In this document: in pieces, positions 17,882-35,079 of the stretch
How the letters are laid out: every line of letters begins with the position of its first letter
Numbering within the stretch: the first letter of the stretch is position 1
Assembly: GCF_009695635.1 (NCBI RefSeq)
Contig: NZ_VUNN01000018.1
Location: forward strand, 1-46,967
Source of the DNA: Bullifex porci
GTDB taxonomy: Bacteria; Spirochaetota; Spirochaetia; Sphaerochaetales; Sphaerochaetaceae
Direction of reading: 5' to 3'
Length of the DNA: 46,967 bases
Program-made: the position numbers and the translations under genes
Notes under the pieces: generated by a model
What the model was told of the DNA's origin: nothing
What the model saw: only the letters and a program-made list of their open reading frames with translations
Database searches by the model: none

Positions 17882-19198
17882 TTATTTTCCTAAGCAGAAT
17901 TTTGAAAAGAGTGTATCAAGGATTTCCTCGTTAGTAACCTCTCCTGTGATTTCACCTAAAATAGAGAGAGCACTTTGGAAAAATAGTGCCATGATATCTA
18001 CACTCTCATTCTCATTACTAAGTATAAAGCGAAGCATCTCAACTAGCTTTACTAATAAATCTCTCTGTCTCTCACTATCGATTGAAATAGCACCGCTTTC
18101 TGAATTATCGCAGCCGTTTAAAAGCTCCTCATGAATTCTCTCGATAAGAGCCCCAATACCCTCTCCACTTAAAGTAGATATAGCTAAGCCATCTCTCTTT
18201 TCAAGATCATTTTTAGACTTAACTACTATAGTCTTAGTCTTCCAGGTAATGTGCTCCTCTTCTCCTGGAGATATTAAAAGTATTACTAAATCTGATTCAT
18301 CGATAAGTCTTTCGCTTCTTTTAATACCCTCACTCTCAATTACATCATCGCTATCTCTTAAGCCCGCAGTATCAAAAAGCCTTACAGGGATATCCATTAT
18401 AGTTGTATATGCTTCTATGTAATCACGAGTAGTACCAGCAATAGGAGAAACTATAGCTCTATCCTCTTTAGTTAACAAATTAAATAGAGAGCTCTTTCCA
18501 GCATTAGTAGAACCAGCTAAGACGATTTTAGCACCCTCTCTATATATCGTTCCTGCACTATAGGTTCTTATCATCTCCTCAAGAGCTTTAATAATATTAT
18601 TTATTTCCTCTCTAGGCATTACCCAATCTTCTAATATTTCATCCTCTGCATAGTCTAGCTGAACCTCTAAGGAGGCAAGCATCTCTACTAGAGAACTCTT
18701 AATCTTTAATAGTCTACTCTTAAGACCACCCTCTAAGCGCTCTAGAGCAGAAGCCTGCCCTCTAACGCTCTTTGAAGAAATTAACTCCTCAACTGCTTCA
18801 GCTTGAGTTAAATCTAAGCGCCCATGCATGAATGCTCTATATGTAAATTCACCCTTTTTAGCTTGCTTTATACCGATTGACTCTAAAAGTGAAAAAATTC
18901 TCTTAAGTCCAGTTAAGGAACCATGAGCATTAATCTCTATTGCTTCTTCTCCAGTGTATCCATGTCCCTCTCTATATACTGCAAGGACAACCTCATCTAC
19001 ACTATCTCCAGCTTGGTCAACTAAACAGCCATGAACTAAGGTATTACTCTTAGCCTTTATTAGCTTTTCCTTTCTAGAGAAAACATTTGCGATTAAATTA
19101 ATAACACCATCTCCACTAGTTCTTACAATTGCAATTGCCGATGGCGCATAAGGTGTTGCTAATGCATAAATTGGTTCATTTGTGGTATAAGCATCCAT
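17882..19198 (-). CDS. mnmE: tRNA modification GTPase MnmE
   Basis: GTPase partner of MnmG in wobble-uridine modification. The 438 residues show the N-terminal folate-binding domain (IYALATPYAPSAIAIVRTSG, GYTGEEAIEINAHG), a helical domain, and an inserted G domain: G1 AGSTNAGKSS near 224-233, G2 AGTTRD, G3 DTAGL. The C-terminal FCLGK retains the essential cysteine (usual FCIGK). The ATG at 19198 lies only 8 nt from a strong -10 box, with no Shine-Dalgarno, so the mRNA is probably leaderless. It heads the mnmE-mnmG-rsmG-ftsK block. Confidence 0.97.
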   Translation of the reverse strand: MDAYTTNEPIYALATPYAPSAIAIVRTSGDGVINLIANVFSRKEKLIKAKSNTLVHGCLVDQAGDSVDEVVLAVYREGHGYTGEEAIEINAHGSLTGLKRIFSLLESIGIKQAKKGEFTYRAFMHGRLDLTQAEAVEELISSKSVRGQASALERLEGGLKSRLLKIKSSLVEMLASLEVQLDYAEDEILEDWVMPREEINNIIKALEEMIRTYSAGTIYREGAKIVLAGSTNAGKSSLFNLLTKEDRAIVSPIAGTTRDYIEAYTTIMDIPVRLFDTAGLRDSDDVIESEGIKRSERLIDESDLVILLISPGEEEHITWKTKTIVVKSKNDLEKRDGLAISTLSGEGIGALIERIHEELLNGCDNSESGAISIDSERQRDLLVKLVEMLRFILSNENESVDIMALFFQSALSILGEITGEVTNEEILDTLFSKFCLGK

Positions 19199-19206
19199 AG
19201 CGTGTT

Positions 19207-19235
19207 ATTATAGCTTGTTGATACAATCTACACAA
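19207..19235 (-). promoter_or_regulatory. Promoter of mnmE (leaderless transcript predicted)
   Basis: On the minus strand, TTGTGT (19235-19230), a 17-nt spacer and a perfect TATAAT (19212-19207). Only 8 nt separate the -10 box from the mnmE ATG, so transcription should start at or within 1-2 nt of the start codon. Confidence 0.75.
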
Positions 19236-19253
19236 GAAAGGTAAGAGGACCAC

Positions 19254-20237
19254 ATGTTTGATATTGAAAGCCAAAAAGAAAGAAGCTTAATGAATAAAGC
19301 AATTAGAGATTTTTTTGATTCAAGAGATTATCTTGAGGTATTTACTCCAACACTCTCTCCAGATTTAATTCCTGAACCAACTATACAAAACTTTGAAACA
19401 AGATTTATCAATGAGTTTGAGGGCTCCTTAGATATGTATCTAATACCATCTCCTGAGGTATTTATGAAAAGATTACTAGCTAATGGCTTTCCTTCTCTCT
19501 ATCAAATCTCAAGCTGCTTTAGAAATAGTGAGCAGCTAGGATTAATTCATAATCCTGAGTTCTCGATGCTTGAGTACTACACTCTTGGCTTCAATGAAAT
19601 AGATTCTATAGCTTTAACAGAGGAGCTTTTAAGAGCAGTTAAGAGACCACAAACTCCTAGCTATGCACTTCCTCCTTTTATTACTATGAGTGTTTCAGAG
19701 GCTGTAAAAGCCTATTCAGGAGTAAATCTTGATGATAACCAAGAGTATGAGCGCCTCAAAGAGAGTGCTGAAAAGCTTGGTCTCTATGTCCCAAATGGAG
19801 AATCGTGGGATGATACATTTAATAGAATTTTTATTAATTTTGTAGAGCCTGCACTTCCTAAGGATAAGCCGGTAGTATTAACAGATTATCCATATCAAAT
19901 TGATTGTCTTGCAGAAAAATACCAGGATAAGCCATATAGACATCGCTGGGAAATGTATATCAATGGTACAGAGGTTGCTAACTGCTATAAGGAAGAGACC
20001 TCAAAGGAAGTAACAAAGACTTACTATGAAAAGGAATATGAAAAGCTTTGTCTTCAAAGAAAGGAGTCTGGTCTACCTATTCCTAAGATCGACCCCGCTT
20101 TTTATGAGCTAAATATCCCTTCTTCTAGTGGTGTTGCTATTGGTCTTGACAGACTCTTAATGTGCATAACAGGAAAAGCAGAAATAACACCTTTACTTTT
20201 ATTTCCTCTTTCTGATATGATACAAAACGGACTGTAA
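19254..20237 (+). CDS. epmA: EF-P--(R)-beta-lysine ligase
   Basis: A truncated class II lysyl-tRNA-synthetase paralogue (also GenX/PoxA/YjeA) that activates (R)-beta-lysine and attaches it to a lysine of EF-P. The 327 residues, close to the ~325 of E. coli EpmA, hold only the catalytic core without the tRNA anticodon-binding domain. Motif 2 is present as QISSCFRNSEQ with NPEFSMLEYY, and motif 3 as SGVAIGLDRLLM. The ATG has AGAGGA 6 nt upstream. It is followed after 44 bp by its substrate gene efp. The epmB gene for the beta-lysine-producing aminomutase lies 4 kb downstream, supporting the assignment over a tRNA role. Confidence 0.95.
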   Translation: MFDIESQKERSLMNKAIRDFFDSRDYLEVFTPTLSPDLIPEPTIQNFETRFINEFEGSLDMYLIPSPEVFMKRLLANGFPSLYQISSCFRNSEQLGLIHNPEFSMLEYYTLGFNEIDSIALTEELLRAVKRPQTPSYALPPFITMSVSEAVKAYSGVNLDDNQEYERLKESAEKLGLYVPNGESWDDTFNRIFINFVEPALPKDKPVVLTDYPYQIDCLAEKYQDKPYRHRWEMYINGTEVANCYKEETSKEVTKTYYEKEYEKLCLQRKESGLPIPKIDPAFYELNIPSSSGVAIGLDRLLMCITGKAEITPLLLFPLSDMIQNGL

Positions 20238-20281
20238 GTCAAAAAGTAATAAGTAAATAAACTAATATTTGAGGTATAATA

Positions 20282-20845
20282 ATGATTAAAGCAGGTCAGA
20301 TTGATAAGGGTACTGCACTTTTAATTAAGGGTCAGCCTTTTGTTTGTATCGATCGCGAATTCGTTAACCCAGGTAAGGGTTCTGCATTCGTTCGCTTAAA
20401 GCTTAAGAGCCCAAGCACAGGTCAGGTTCTCGCAGAGACAATGAAATCTCAGGATAACGCAGAGGACATCACAGTTGAGGATAAGGATCTCCAGTATCTC
20501 TACAACGATGGAACAAACTTCGCATTCATGAACGTTGAATCTTTTGATCAGATTGAAGTTCCAATGGCTTCATTCCCTGATTATGAGTACTTCATGAAGG
20601 AAGGTGAAACATATCGTGCAACCTTCTGGGAAGATCAGGTTCTTGATATCATCATCCCAGCAAAGATTGTATTCACAGTAGCTGAAGCAGAAGAAGCTGT
20701 TAAGGGTGATACAGTTCAGGGTGCTACAAAGTATGTAACAACTGAAACAGGACTCAAGGTAAGAGTACCTATCTTTATCAAACAGGGTGAAAAGATCCGC
20801 GTCAACACAGAGACTAAGGAATACCTTGAAAGGGTAAACAAGTAA
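20282..20845 (+). CDS. efp: Translation elongation factor P
   Basis: Relieves ribosome stalling at consecutive prolines. The 187 residues have the three-domain length of EF-P: a KOW-like domain I with the modified loop NPGKGSAFVR, where Lys32 is the expected beta-lysylation site, then two OB-fold domains ending VNTETKEYLERVNK. The loop PGKG matches the lysine type, not the arginine (rhamnosylated) type, in agreement with epmA/epmB nearby. TTTGAGG precedes the ATG. Codon use looks more biased than in neighbours, as expected for a highly expressed gene. A strong terminator follows. Confidence 0.97.
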   Translation: MIKAGQIDKGTALLIKGQPFVCIDREFVNPGKGSAFVRLKLKSPSTGQVLAETMKSQDNAEDITVEDKDLQYLYNDGTNFAFMNVESFDQIEVPMASFPDYEYFMKEGETYRATFWEDQVLDIIIPAKIVFTVAEAEEAVKGDTVQGATKYVTTETGLKVRVPIFIKQGEKIRVNTETKEYLERVNK

Positions 20846-20857
20846 GATACTTGATAC

Positions 20858-20885
20858 GGCGGCTCATAAGGCCGCCTTATTTTTT
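20858..20885 (+). terminator. Terminator after efp
   Basis: GGCGGC and GCCGCC pair around a 7-nt loop and are followed by TTATTTTTT. The DUF362 start codon lies only 5 nt past the T-run, so that gene needs read-through or its own promoter. Confidence 0.85.
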
Positions 20886-20890
20886 AAGCT

Positions 20891-21970
20891 ATGACAGAGA
20901 AAGACATATTCGTAACATATTCAACTAATATTGAGAAGGCCACTAGAGAGCTACTTGAAAAGCTAGATATTGAAAAAGAGATCCCTAATAAGGATGCTAA
21001 AATCGGTCTTAAGCCAAATCTTGTAATTGCAGCTACTCCAGAGTATGGAGCAACAACTCATACTGAGATTATTAGAGAGCTAATATCCTTTTTAAATGAT
21101 CATGGATATCACAATATAATAATTATTGAATCTGCATGGGTTGGTGATTCAACAGAGAGAGCCTTTAAGGTAAATAACTATAAGAGCTTTGGAGTTCCAC
21201 TTGTAGATGTAAAGAAGGATAGCTATGAAAAGGTAACTGTTAAGGGCCTTACAATGGAAATTTCAAAAACAGCCCTCAACCTCGATTACTTAATCTCACT
21301 TCCAGTTTTAAAGGGACACTGTCAAACATTAATGACATGTGCGCTTAAAAATCAAAAGGGACTTCTTTCAGACCGCTCAAAGAGACAATTCCATACTTGG
21401 GGACTTATGAAGCCTATTGCTGCACTAAATGCTGCTATTAAAGCAGATTTAATCCTAGTTGACTCAATTTGTGGGGATTTAGATTTTGAGGAGGGAGGAA
21501 ACCCAGTAGTTACTAATCGCCTATTACTTGCAAAGGACCCTGTACTACTCGATACCTATGCAGCTTCCCTACTTGGATATGACATTGCTGATATTGAGTA
21601 CATCCCACTTGCTCATAGCTTTGGAGTTGGAAGCACAGATATTTTAAATGCAAATATTGAAGTTCTTTCAAAGCCTGAAAATGTTTCTATGCCTCAACCA
21701 ACAGGAGCTTGCAGAAGTCTTGCAAAATATGCAGATGCTAATAATGCTTGCTCCGCATGTTATGCATCCTTGATGCATGCATTAAAGCGTCTTAAGGATG
21801 AAGGTATTATTAATCGTTTAGATAGTAAGGTCGCTATTGGTCAAGGGTGGAAGGGAAAAAGCACAGAGCTTGGCGTTGGAGCCTGCACCTCATGTGCTAA
21901 ATTCAATGTAAAGGGATGTCCTCCAACAGCTAAAGCTATTTATGATACACTTAGTGATTTACTTTTCTGA
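20891..21970 (+). CDS. DUF362 family protein (probable iron-sulfur protein)
   Basis: A 359-residue protein matching the DUF362 layout: IGLKPNLV near the N-terminus, the long middle region with LDYLISLPVLKGHCQTLMTCALKNQKG and KDPVLLDTYAASLLG, and two C-terminal cysteine groups, CSACYASL near 290 and CTSCAKFNVKGCPP near 335. The cysteine spacing suggests a cluster site, though not a standard ferredoxin pair. The function of this family is not established. No Shine-Dalgarno is visible and the ATG abuts the efp terminator. Its 3' end overlaps the convergent EamA gene by 12 bp inside an inverted repeat. Location between efp and epmB may be chance. Confidence 0.85.
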   Translation: MTEKDIFVTYSTNIEKATRELLEKLDIEKEIPNKDAKIGLKPNLVIAATPEYGATTHTEIIRELISFLNDHGYHNIIIIESAWVGDSTERAFKVNNYKSFGVPLVDVKKDSYEKVTVKGLTMEISKTALNLDYLISLPVLKGHCQTLMTCALKNQKGLLSDRSKRQFHTWGLMKPIAALNAAIKADLILVDSICGDLDFEEGGNPVVTNRLLLAKDPVLLDTYAASLLGYDIADIEYIPLAHSFGVGSTDILNANIEVLSKPENVSMPQPTGACRSLAKYADANNACSACYASLMHALKRLKDEGIINRLDSKVAIGQGWKGKSTELGVGACTSCAKFNVKGCPPTAKAIYDTLSDLLF

Positions 21971-21980
21971 AATCACTAAG
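21950..21980. terminator. Bidirectional terminator inside both convergent gene ends
   Basis: CTTAGTGATTT and AAATCACTAAG make an 11-bp perfect stem with a 9-nt loop. It overlaps the last codons of the DUF362 gene (plus) and the EamA gene (minus), so it is both coding and a likely two-way stop. The T-rich tracts are weak. Confidence 0.55.
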
Positions 21981-22828
21981 CCAATTATTACTAAAATTGT
22001 TCCTGCTATCATATAGATATTCATACCTTCATTTAAAAAGAAATATGAGAACACAACTGTGATAGCAGGTACAAGGTAAATATATACACCACTTACTAAG
22101 GCCCCTAAGCTTTTAATTGCAAAGTTCCATACTGCAAAGCAAATTGCAGAGGCTCCAAGGCCTAAATAAATAACATTGATTAATACATTTAAATCCTTAA
22201 AATTATTAGCGCTTACATCAAAGCCTAAAAGAAGAGATATCGGTAATAAAACTATTAAGCCATAGAAGAAGGTTCTTCGAGTTAGTGCTATTGTATCGAC
22301 ACTTTGCTTTCCAGCTCTTTTTATAAACACAGAGTAAATACCCCATAAAATAGCTCCAAGTAATGCTAAAATAAAGCCAGTTAGGTCAAAGGAAAAGCCA
22401 CCCTCACTATAGTTCATTAAAGCAATACCACCTATTGCGAGTATGAAGCCTAAAAAGAAATATATTGATAGCTTTTCATCACTTTCCTTTAATAATCTAA
22501 AGGTAATCGCAATAAAAAATGGTGCGGTAGAGACTATAAGGGAAACATTTCCAGCACTTGTATATTCAAGAGCATAGTTCTCAGCAAGGTAATATAGCGC
22601 AATACCAAAGACACCTGCAAAGAAGGCATTAGCTTCCCACTTAATTCCTTGAAATGGTAGTGTCTTAGGTCTCACGGCCCATAGGAGTAAATACCCTAAT
22701 ATAAATCTGATAACTAATATTTCTATTGGAGTAAATGTAGAAAGAACGACCTTCGTTGAAATAAAGGTCGTTCCCCAAATTACAGCACAAAGCAAAGCTG
22801 CCATGTGCCCTAAGGCTTTCTTATTCAC
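21959..22828 (-). CDS. EamA/DMT-family transporter
   Basis: A ten-helix drug/metabolite transporter of about 289 residues made of two EamA repeats. The repeat starts are visible as ALLCAVIWGTTFISTKVVL and LALLGAILWGIYSVFIKRA, and the repeats end with the usual hydrophobic helices (FLGFILAIGGIALMNY, MIAGTILVIIGLVISEK). Substrate is not predictable; relatives export amino acids or metabolites. I chose the GTG at 22828, which overlaps the MFS stop (GTGAATAA) and gives the usual short N-terminus; TTG at 22852 or ATG at 22804 are alternatives. It is co-transcribed with the MFS gene. Confidence 0.85.
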   Translation of the reverse strand: MNKKALGHMAALLCAVIWGTTFISTKVVLSTFTPIEILVIRFILGYLLLWAVRPKTLPFQGIKWEANAFFAGVFGIALYYLAENYALEYTSAGNVSLIVSTAPFFIAITFRLLKESDEKLSIYFFLGFILAIGGIALMNYSEGGFSFDLTGFILALLGAILWGIYSVFIKRAGKQSVDTIALTRRTFFYGLIVLLPISLLLGFDVSANNFKDLNVLINVIYLGLGASAICFAVWNFAIKSLGALVSGVYIYLVPAITVVFSYFFLNEGMNIYMIAGTILVIIGLVISEK

Positions 22829-24116
22829 CGTCTTCTGGCTCTCCACGGTCAACCTTACTCATAGTAAAGCATGCGATCGTCATAAAGATAGCTGCGTAGA
22901 TAAACAGACTTGGATAGCCAAATATATCTATACATGCACCTGAAAGTGGAGGTGAAATAATAGATGCTGCCTGTGAGAAGAAATAATACAAGCCAGTATA
23001 AATACCTACTGTTGAGAATGTAGACATCTGCCAAAGCATTGGGAATGAGTTAGTTACTATTGTTACCCAGAAAATACCAAAGCAGAATAGAAGTGCCCAG
23101 AAGGTAATAAGCTTAACTGTACCAGGTAAGCCCTTTAATAAAACTCCATGTAAGAATACTAAGATAAGAACTGTAACTAAGCAAATTAAGGCGCCTCTAA
23201 TAGTCTTTTTTCTTCCATGCTTATGAGCAAACTTTCCTGAAGGAATTGCGAAGATAGCATATGCAATACCAACCATACCAGCAGCAAGAGATGCTGTACC
23301 AGAGCTTGTTCCAAGTACCTCTACACTGTACTTTCCAACAAATGGAAGTACTCCCTGATATGCGATAAACCAACAAAGAAGACTGATAAGAATATAAAGT
23401 GCTGACTTATTCTTTTCTCCAAGAACTACCTTTAAGCTCTTTAAGATTGGTTCCTTCTTCTCTTCCTTCTGTTTGTCATCATTTCTAACCTTACTATTCT
23501 TTTCCTTAACAAAGATAAATAAGAGAACTACTGCAACAATTACAAATATAGAAGCTACAGGGAAAGCTAATACGTTATCAACACTGCCAAAGCCTGGAAG
23601 TGTAATCTTTACATTCATAAGTCTTGCAAGCAATATTGTTCCTAAAATAGTTGCAATACCACCCATTGTATTTATTACACCGTTAGCTTCACTTCTTAAG
23701 TCTCCTGGTACCATATCAGGCATCAAGGCAACAACAGGTCCTCTTACAGCCTGTTTAGCTAAATTGAGTACAAAAATTAATGCAATTAGAGCCCATAGTG
23801 ATGAAAGAGCTGCTATTGGAATAAGTCCAAAGGCAACAGCTGCTAATGGTAGCATTGTTATGATAAAAGGCATTCTTCTACCAATTATTGTATCAATTCT
23901 ATCGCTATAAGCTGAGAAGATAGGAATTAAGAAAATTGCAAGGACGTTATCTAATGTCATAATCGTACCGATTAATGAATTAGAAGTAATGTACTTTCCT
24001 AAAAAGATTGGAACATAGGTATCATATAGAGGATCCATTAGACCCATAGTAAAAAATCCAAGTCCAATTAAAAACGTAATTAAGTAGTAGCCTTTTAAGC
24101 TCTTTTTGTTGCTCAT
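22821..24116 (-). CDS. MFS transporter, sugar (GPH/SLC45-like) type
   Basis: A 431-residue protein with about twelve membrane segments. After the first helix (YYLITFLIGLGFFTMGLMDP) comes the motif FSAYSDRIDTIIGRRMPFII, matching the loop 2-3 D-R-x-G-R-R pattern of sucrose/glycoside carriers. A charged central loop (KEKNSKVRNDDKQKEEKKE) separates the two halves, and a second copy of the loop motif appears as GKFAHKHGRKKTIRGA. The substrate is uncertain. GGGGGG lies just before the ATG, and a TATAAT box sits 30 nt upstream. Confidence 0.87.
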   Translation of the reverse strand: MSNKKSLKGYYLITFLIGLGFFTMGLMDPLYDTYVPIFLGKYITSNSLIGTIMTLDNVLAIFLIPIFSAYSDRIDTIIGRRMPFIITMLPLAAVAFGLIPIAALSSLWALIALIFVLNLAKQAVRGPVVALMPDMVPGDLRSEANGVINTMGGIATILGTILLARLMNVKITLPGFGSVDNVLAFPVASIFVIVAVVLLFIFVKEKNSKVRNDDKQKEEKKEPILKSLKVVLGEKNKSALYILISLLCWFIAYQGVLPFVGKYSVEVLGTSSGTASLAAGMVGIAYAIFAIPSGKFAHKHGRKKTIRGALICLVTVLILVFLHGVLLKGLPGTVKLITFWALLFCFGIFWVTIVTNSFPMLWQMSTFSTVGIYTGLYYFFSQAASIISPPLSGACIDIFGYPSLFIYAAIFMTIACFTMSKVDRGEPEDGE

Positions 24117-24145
24117 ATAGCCCCCTAGGAAACAACATAAAAGCT

Positions 24146-24151
24146 ATTATA
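24146..24151 (-). promoter_or_regulatory. -10 box for the MFS-EamA operon
   Basis: TATAAT on the minus strand, 29 nt before the MFS ATG. The -35 region (ATGCAA at a 17-nt spacing) is poor. The 89-bp gap to epmB holds this and the divergent epmB promoter. Confidence 0.5.
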
Positions 24152-24168
24152 TCAGAAATAATATATAC

Positions 24169-24197
24169 TTGCATTGTTCTTGAAAAAAATTTACATT
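24169..24197 (+). promoter_or_regulatory. Promoter of epmB (leaderless transcript predicted)
   Basis: TTGCAT (24169-24174), 17-nt spacer, TACATT (24192-24197). The ATG follows after exactly 8 nt with no Shine-Dalgarno, the same layout as at mnmE. Confidence 0.55.
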
Positions 24198-24205
24198 CTT
24201 ATTCC

Positions 24206-25231
24206 ATGGTCTTAACAAAAGAAGATTTAGAGAAAAAGCTTAAATTAACTAAAGAAGAGGAAGCTTGGTTTTCATCACCATCCTCTCTCCCTCTAACAAT
24301 TAGTGATTACTATTTCTCACTAATTGAGGATGATGCAAACGACCCTATTAGAAGGGAGGTTGTACCATCTATTTTAGAGTGTAATGACGATGCTTCAATT
24401 GATCCACTTGCTGAGGTAGACCATTCAGTAACACCTAGATTAATACATCGTTATACTCATAGAGCTGCTCTATTAACTACAGACCGTTGCTTTACATATT
24501 GTAGACACTGCTTTAGAAGACGCTTTACAGGTCTTAATTCAGGAGCAATTTCTACTCAAGATATCGATAAAGCCTCAAATTACTTAAAGGACCATAAAGA
24601 AATTAAAGAGTTACTTTTAACAGGTGGTGATTTATTTACTCTACCTATTTCAAGGCTAGATTATCTCTTTAATAGTCTTAAAAGCTCTAGACCAGATATG
24701 ATATTGCGTCTCTGTACTAGAGCCGTTGTAACTTTTCCAGAAATCTTTACGCAACAGTTAATGGATGTAATAAAAAAATACTCCTATGGAGCTCCATTTC
24801 TTTTATTAACACACTATAACCATCCAAGAGAGCTAACAAAAGAATCTATTGAAGCTGTTAATAAATTCCTTTCCTTAGGAATTCCAGCCTTTAACCAAAC
24901 GGTATTATTAAAGGGTGTTAATGATAATCCTGATACTCTAGAAGAGCTATGCAACAGCCTTCTTTATAATAGAATTAAACCATATTATCTATTCCAAGGT
25001 GATTTAGTAACAGGTACTACTCATCTAAGAGTTGATATCAAAGATGGCTTAGCTCTTGAAAAGGAACTGAGAAAGAGACTTTCTGGTCTTGCGATGCCAC
25101 AATATACATTAGACCTTCCAGAGGGTGGAGGAAAAATAATACTAACAGAAAACCACTTTATCTCAGAGGATGATAATTTCTATTACTTCTCTACTCCTGA
25201 AGGTGATAAAAGAAGATATCCTAAGAAATAG
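24206..25231 (+). CDS. epmB: EF-P lysine 2,3-aminomutase (KamA family)
   Basis: A radical SAM, PLP-dependent enzyme that converts L-lysine to beta-lysine for attachment to EF-P. In the 341 residues the cluster ligands are Cys95, Cys99 and Cys102 (CFTYCRHC), with LTGGDLF as the GGE-like motif and the PLP lysine at about Lys310 in EGGGK. The protein is short, like E. coli EpmB (~342), lacking the C-terminal extension of catabolic lysine 2,3-aminomutases. That and the nearby epmA and efp make EpmB the best name. No epmC hydroxylase gene is in the window. It is probably transcribed alone. Confidence 0.92.
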   Translation: MVLTKEDLEKKLKLTKEEEAWFSSPSSLPLTISDYYFSLIEDDANDPIRREVVPSILECNDDASIDPLAEVDHSVTPRLIHRYTHRAALLTTDRCFTYCRHCFRRRFTGLNSGAISTQDIDKASNYLKDHKEIKELLLTGGDLFTLPISRLDYLFNSLKSSRPDMILRLCTRAVVTFPEIFTQQLMDVIKKYSYGAPFLLLTHYNHPRELTKESIEAVNKFLSLGIPAFNQTVLLKGVNDNPDTLEELCNSLLYNRIKPYYLFQGDLVTGTTHLRVDIKDGLALEKELRKRLSGLAMPQYTLDLPEGGGKIILTENHFISEDDNFYYFSTPEGDKRRYPKK

Positions 25232-34985: not shown

Positions 34986-35079
34986 AGTCGATAATATATC
35001 ATGAGAATAATAAATGTTCCATAAAAGCTTAAGCTCTACCCTTATTCGCAATTAATTAGCTTTATATTAGAAATATCTA

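Follow-up and report, generated by a model that had tools for sequence, protein, structure and literature searches.

The ribosome is known in other bacteria to bind a 5'-terminal AUG directly, and one organism with leaderless mRNAs, Mycobacterium tuberculosis, is a high-GC Gram-positive. In spirochaetes, a dRNA-seq study of Leptospira interrogans reports ~440 mRNAs with a 5' UTR of <10 nt alongside leadered ones (PMC5243855). L. interrogans belongs to the same phylum as the organism studied here but to another spirochaete lineage, and its leaderless mRNAs were measured whereas we infer ours. An in silico survey counts leaderless genes in 6 of 18 Spirochaetes genomes, at a mean of 3.9% of genes (PMC3160421). 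Another study, in which a positive PC3 is taken to indicate leaderless or S1-dependent signals, gives six Spirochaetes a mean PC3 of -3.25 (PMC5397173); the negative mean counts against a phylum-wide trend. The report of the M. tuberculosis leaderless transcriptome (PMC3898074) describes a single genome that yields both kinds of mRNA, leaderless and leadered, the arrangement that we propose here. Our literature search yielded no paper joining Sphaerochaeta with leaderless genes and no transcript map for this lineage, and a search combining leaderless, spirochete and transcription start site returned only the Leptospira study.

The DNA analysed here is a 46,967-nt stretch from Bullifex porci (the window), and we consider it highly probable that two of its genes, mnmE and epmB, are members of a leaderless gene class in this spirochaete. 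The first-pass annotation had described a TTGnnT -35 box, a 17-nt spacer, a -10 box and 8 nt to the ATG before both genes, neither with a Shine-Dalgarno (SD) site. Both layouts are borne out, as TTGTGT-17-TATAAT-8-ATG before mnmE and TTGCAT-17-TACATT-8-ATG before epmB (Table 1), with the reservation that the epmB -10 box is a weak one. A gene was counted as SD-led when an SD word lay 3-13 nt 5' of its ATG; neither gene has one there, and at SD spacing both lack GGAG, GAGG, AGGA and any 4-mer of AAGGAGGTG. The 55-bp divergent region at 19199-19253 is common to the leaderless-looking mnmE and the SD-like epmA.

Table 1. Coordinates of the genes, start codon and upstream elements discussed in the text (positions in the window)
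Feature	Position	Strand	Remarks
mnmE, tRNA U34 modification GTPase	17882..19198	-	TIGR00450 (NCBIfam) 325 bits vs cut-off 252.6
mnmE ATG start codon	19196..19198	-	in-frame stop 2 codons upstream; homologues agree
mnmE -10 box TATAAT	19207..19212	-	8 nt before ATG; recurs in relatives
mnmE -35 box TTGTGT	19230..19235	-	17-nt spacer to -10
epmA SD-like core GAGG	19245..19248	+	epmA ATG 19254; read by eye
epmB -35 box TTGCAT	24169..24174	+	17-nt spacer to -10
epmB -10 box TACATT	24192..24197	+	4/6 consensus matches; 8 nt before ATG
epmB-like KamA-family radical SAM gene	24206..25231	+	ATG 24206
nadE -10-like TATATT	34993..34998	-	7 nt before ATG 34985

The start codons of both genes appear secure. 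A usual start codon earlier than the mnmE ATG at 19196 is precluded by the in-frame stop, and the ATG of epmB is the 5'-most ATG, GTG or TTG of its frame. It could be argued that the real starts lie downstream behind ordinary SD leaders, since all starts are predicted and the first ATG of each sampled gene was assigned by rule. We regard this as extremely unlikely, given that neither gene has a further start within its first 120 nt, a point on which the first-pass annotation had let its reading hang, and that alignments of homologues begin at the first residues. As to the identity of epmB, the product scores above the cut-off of the KamA model TIGR00238 (220 bits against 199.2) and below that of the EpmB model TIGR03821 (206 bits against 369.3). 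Several aminomutase models give it somewhat more bits than EpmB, all under their cut-offs. The best match of epmA, TIGR00462, is likewise under its cut-off (240.8 bits against 286.9). The name epmB for the gene at 24206-25231 is taken solely from its neighbours epmA and efp, and is reasonable because of them.

The first-pass annotation had proposed a search for -10 boxes just 5' of start codons lacking SD sites. We carried this out on 847 kb (35%) of the organism's own AT-rich genome (G000; 2.42 Mb in 67 contigs), on four relatives (400 kb each) and on Escherichia coli K-12 (300 kb). Open reading frames were called by a codon-usage score, the first ATG was taken by a fixed rule blind to upstream motifs, and, as a proxy, a gene counted as the first of an operon when no called gene reached into the 50 nt upstream of it. 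We used 611 of 653 G000 genes, leaving out those whose first ATG lay >20 codons inside the frame, that were near the end of a stretch or that had no early ATG. Among the 323 first-of-operon genes in this set, 163 are without an SD word, and 63 of the 163 have TANNNT with a gap of 6-8 nt to the ATG (box start at -14, -13 or -12), compared with a mean of 23.5 and a maximum of 37 in 100 dinucleotide shuffles. The distribution peaks at -12 (32 genes), where 6 nt separate box and ATG. A clear peak is also present in G011, a relative of the same genus with 58% GC (17/61; shuffle mean 2.3, maximum 5), and is absent from E. coli (1/57; shuffle mean 3.8). In the three more distant relatives the excess is small: the count equals the shuffle maximum in G017 (7/43; mean 2.1, maximum 7), exceeds all 100 shuffles in G036 (9/63; mean 3.6, maximum 8) and falls inside the shuffle range in G060 (8/62; mean 4.2, maximum 9). 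The leaderless-type signal is clear within the genus and modest outside it. Expressed as excess over the null, it amounts to ~12% of first-of-operon genes in G000, ~11% in G011 and 3-4% in G017, G036 and G060. The ~12% refers to sampled first-of-operon genes, a denominator other than that of the 3.9% in the in silico survey; both works predict leaderless genes from sequence (PMC3160421).

These counts bear on whether chance alone might place such boxes, -10-like hexamers being abundant in AT-rich DNA. At the level of single genes this concern has substance: with 23.5 of 163 expected from shuffles, roughly one candidate in three, taken singly, may be spurious. When 18900-24400 was scanned for generic sigma-70 promoters, 23 sites turned up (shuffles: 16.3, sd 4.5). 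Neither the mnmE nor the epmB promoter was among them, because each -35 box shares only 3 of 6 positions with TTGACA and the rule asked for 4. However, the G000 count lies above all 100 shuffles and the conservation upstream of mnmE, described below, above all 1000. Chance is contradicted for the leaderless class and for mnmE, and as the general explanation we judge it very improbable; for epmB and for nadE, each taken alone, it is possible.

The -35 region provides separate evidence. The 63 candidates were picked on the -10 word and the absence of an SD word, and TTG played no part in their selection; TTG nevertheless lies at a spacer of 17 nt in 18 of them and of 18 nt in 8, compared with 0-3 at each of the other spacers from 5 to 30. 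The full arrangement, TTG-17/18-TANNNT at a gap of 6-8, is found in 26 of the 163 SD-less genes. With the window omitted, 24/157 genes have it 6-8 nt before the ATG; the background, taken from gaps of 12-44, averages 1.36 per three positions. The same arrangement occurs in 7/61 SD-less genes of G011, 4/43 of G017, 4/63 of G036 and 6/62 of G060, and in 0/57 of E. coli. SD genes of G000 have it only at gaps of at least 16, bar one at gap 1, and those of the other samples have none at gap 6-8, bar two in G017 (gap 6). That SD genes lack TANNNT at -14 to -12 is in part a necessity, as the SD word takes up those positions.

The arrangement before mnmE recurs in relatives. We tallied 33 mnmE upstream regions, from 26 members of the organism's family, its own genome being one of them, and 7 named spirochaete loci whose family was left unchecked. 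An mnmE match was present in 61 genomes, and the loci of the best 30 were used; several loci are near-identical, which makes the effective number smaller. The named loci matching MnmE come from uncultured members of the Spirochaetales/Spirochaetaceae and from Candidatus Aphodenecus pullistercoris (14 loci), which puts the organism near Candidatus Aphodenecus; L034-L038, L042 and L047 were set aside as probable duplicates of genomes already counted. TANNNT stands at a gap of 6-9 in 23/33 (mononucleotide-shuffle mean 3.8, maximum 11 in 1000) and the stricter TATANT in 18/33 (mean 0.34, maximum 3 in 1000). In the remaining 10 the best box is at gap 10 in seven, 14 in one and 19 in one, and one has none. 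TTG lies 16-18 nt 5' of the best -10 word in 26/33 (own included), and an SD word occurs in 0/33. In other families of the class, TANNNT is found at gap 6-9 before mnmE in 3 of 4 loci.

Conservation of the epmB layout is looser than that of mnmE. We tallied 11 of 16 genus loci, omitting L056, L058, L059, L060 and L062, where the match did not start at an ATG or was cut. TTG-17-TAnnn[T/C] is present upstream in 9/11 (raw count, own included), and L051 and L052 have no such promoter. In 7 of the 9 the box is the less canonical TAAAAC or TACAAC, and the gap is 6-10 in 8 and 17 in L057. By eye, the promoter of the omitted L059 is that of L053, and L056, L058 and L060 show no clear TANNNT/C version. 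We also compared orthologue pairs whose upstream DNA was free in each of the two genomes, a gap of 6-10 defining the leaderless class there. For G000 and G011, four pairs are leaderless on both sides (Fisher p=0.0095, n=40), and for G000 and G036 three are (p=0.034, n=29). Significance was not reached with the few pairs available for G017 (n=24), the named loci (n=9) or G060 (n=8).

The first-pass annotation had also proposed that two modes of initiation may coexist, and the sampled genes agree: beside the leaderless-type peak, SD words at proper spacing, mostly beginning at -13 to -9, stand before 342 of 611 G000 genes, against 54 when the interval is shifted by 25 nt (89 of 193 against 10 in E. 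coli). Clear SD sites elsewhere in the window are likewise confirmed, with AGGAG, GGAGG or longer at a listed start of 10 other genes. Since SD words are common alongside the leaderless-type class, the two modes very likely coexist in G000. Of the 16 genus genomes, 3 gave a 16S match, and in the organism's own genome the gene is fragmentary; in L207 the match stops at model position 1387, close to where the locus ends, and no anti-SD tail (CCTCC) follows it.

Absence of an SD word is also what would be seen if transcripts started further upstream and initiation were served by ribosomal protein S1 or by an unstructured AT-rich leader. The rpsA gene for S1 is present (580.1 bits, cut-off 577), the genome is AT-rich, and TANNNT is missing at gap 6-8 from 100 of the 163 first-of-operon genes that lack an SD word, such that some leadered SD-less genes, or misplaced starts, probably exist. 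Some SD-less genes of the window have no -10 box whatever, and therefore SD absence alone does not mean leaderless. However, upstream starts leave three observations unaccounted for: the peak at 6-8 nt accompanied by TTG 17-18 nt further 5', the retention of TATANT close to where mnmE starts in relatives, and the recurrence of that peak in a genus relative of 58% GC. As an account of mnmE and epmB we consider upstream starts improbable.

Two further genes of the window illustrate how far single cases can be taken. The layout before nadE had been called similar but weaker, which is a fair description: a -10-like box 7 nt before the ATG and the 17-nt spacer are there, but the -35 place holds TGGAAC, without TTG. 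The nadE orthologue in G011 is not classed as leaderless, and nadE appears a weak leaderless candidate. The gene at 20891 (+) was considered as a third leaderless gene and rejected, as its TATTTT 7 nt before the ATG belongs to the efp terminator's T-tract; it would count under the genome-sample rule were its upstream DNA free. That terminator has a GGCGGC stem at 20858-20876 and a T-tract to ~20885, a few nt from the next ATG (20891). The gene itself has no SD word, and its best NCBIfam match, the Npun_F2552 family, is far under cut-off.

The equal geometry of mnmE and epmB, to which the first-pass annotation drew attention, is real, but it does not tie the two genes to each other in any special way. 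Gaps of 6, 7 and 8 nt occur in 31, 20 and 12 of the 63 candidates, so 6 is the commonest gap and the 8 shared by mnmE and epmB the rarest of the three, and the epmB gap drifts between 6 and 17 in relatives.

A divergent upstream neighbour, such as mnmE has in epmA, is found for 38 of 58 leaderless candidates and 61 of 141 SD genes (Fisher p=0.005), and for 50 of 92 SD-less genes without a box; the upstream distance of candidates is not significantly shorter than that of SD genes (p=0.067). All four TetR-type regulators that satisfy the first-of-operon rule in G000 are leaderless candidates, but these same four had served to build the search profile. Pfam TetR_N has 16 matches in G000, 9 of which we examined for upstream layout: five have a box 6-7 nt 5' of the likely ATG (L082 5300, L103 9720, L105 9208, L110 2239 and L115 10988), two have a clear SD word, one of them the gene at 1917 of the window, and two are ambiguous. 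This distribution suggests that TetR-type regulators are enriched among leaderless genes, and leaderless repressors may be common in G000.

Transcription begins ~6-9 nt downstream of a -10 box, and at a 6-nt gap the A of the ATG would be the usual +1. Promoter-like anatomy, positional enrichment, independent enrichment of the -35 word and recurrence before mnmE in relatives all support a leaderless class, and it is from these that we infer leaderless mRNAs for mnmE and epmB. We envision a scenario in which RNA polymerase, presumably with the housekeeping sigma factor, recognizes TTGnnn-17/18-TAnnnT and starts transcription ~6-9 nt past the -10 box, at or no more than ~3 nt from the A of the ATG. 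For mnmE, the 5' end of the transcript is probably at the ATG or within ~3 nt of it; a leader of 3-5 nt would suit the mnmE and epmB data equally well. An mRNA begun in this way would be too short at its 5' end to hold an SD site, and initiation would presumably follow the leaderless route, with the ribosome binding the 5'-terminal AUG directly. Other genes of the same genome use ordinary SD leaders.

Leaderless genes are already known in spirochaetes, if seldom documented there, and mnmE and epmB would add further members. Gene finders that expect an SD site can misplace the starts of genes of this type. The part worth following is the persistence of the mnmE layout over a family. One could speculate, with little confidence, that being leaderless is an ancient trait of mnmE in this spirochaete family and is maintained by selection, the -10 box staying 7-8 nt before the ATG in most relatives while its flanks change; output of a tRNA wobble-modification enzyme would thereby be tied to conditions favouring leaderless translation, and TetR-type repressors and divergent pairs may share the trait. 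The leaderless-looking state of mnmE can be traced across many species, which makes the gene useful for addressing why some genes stay leaderless.
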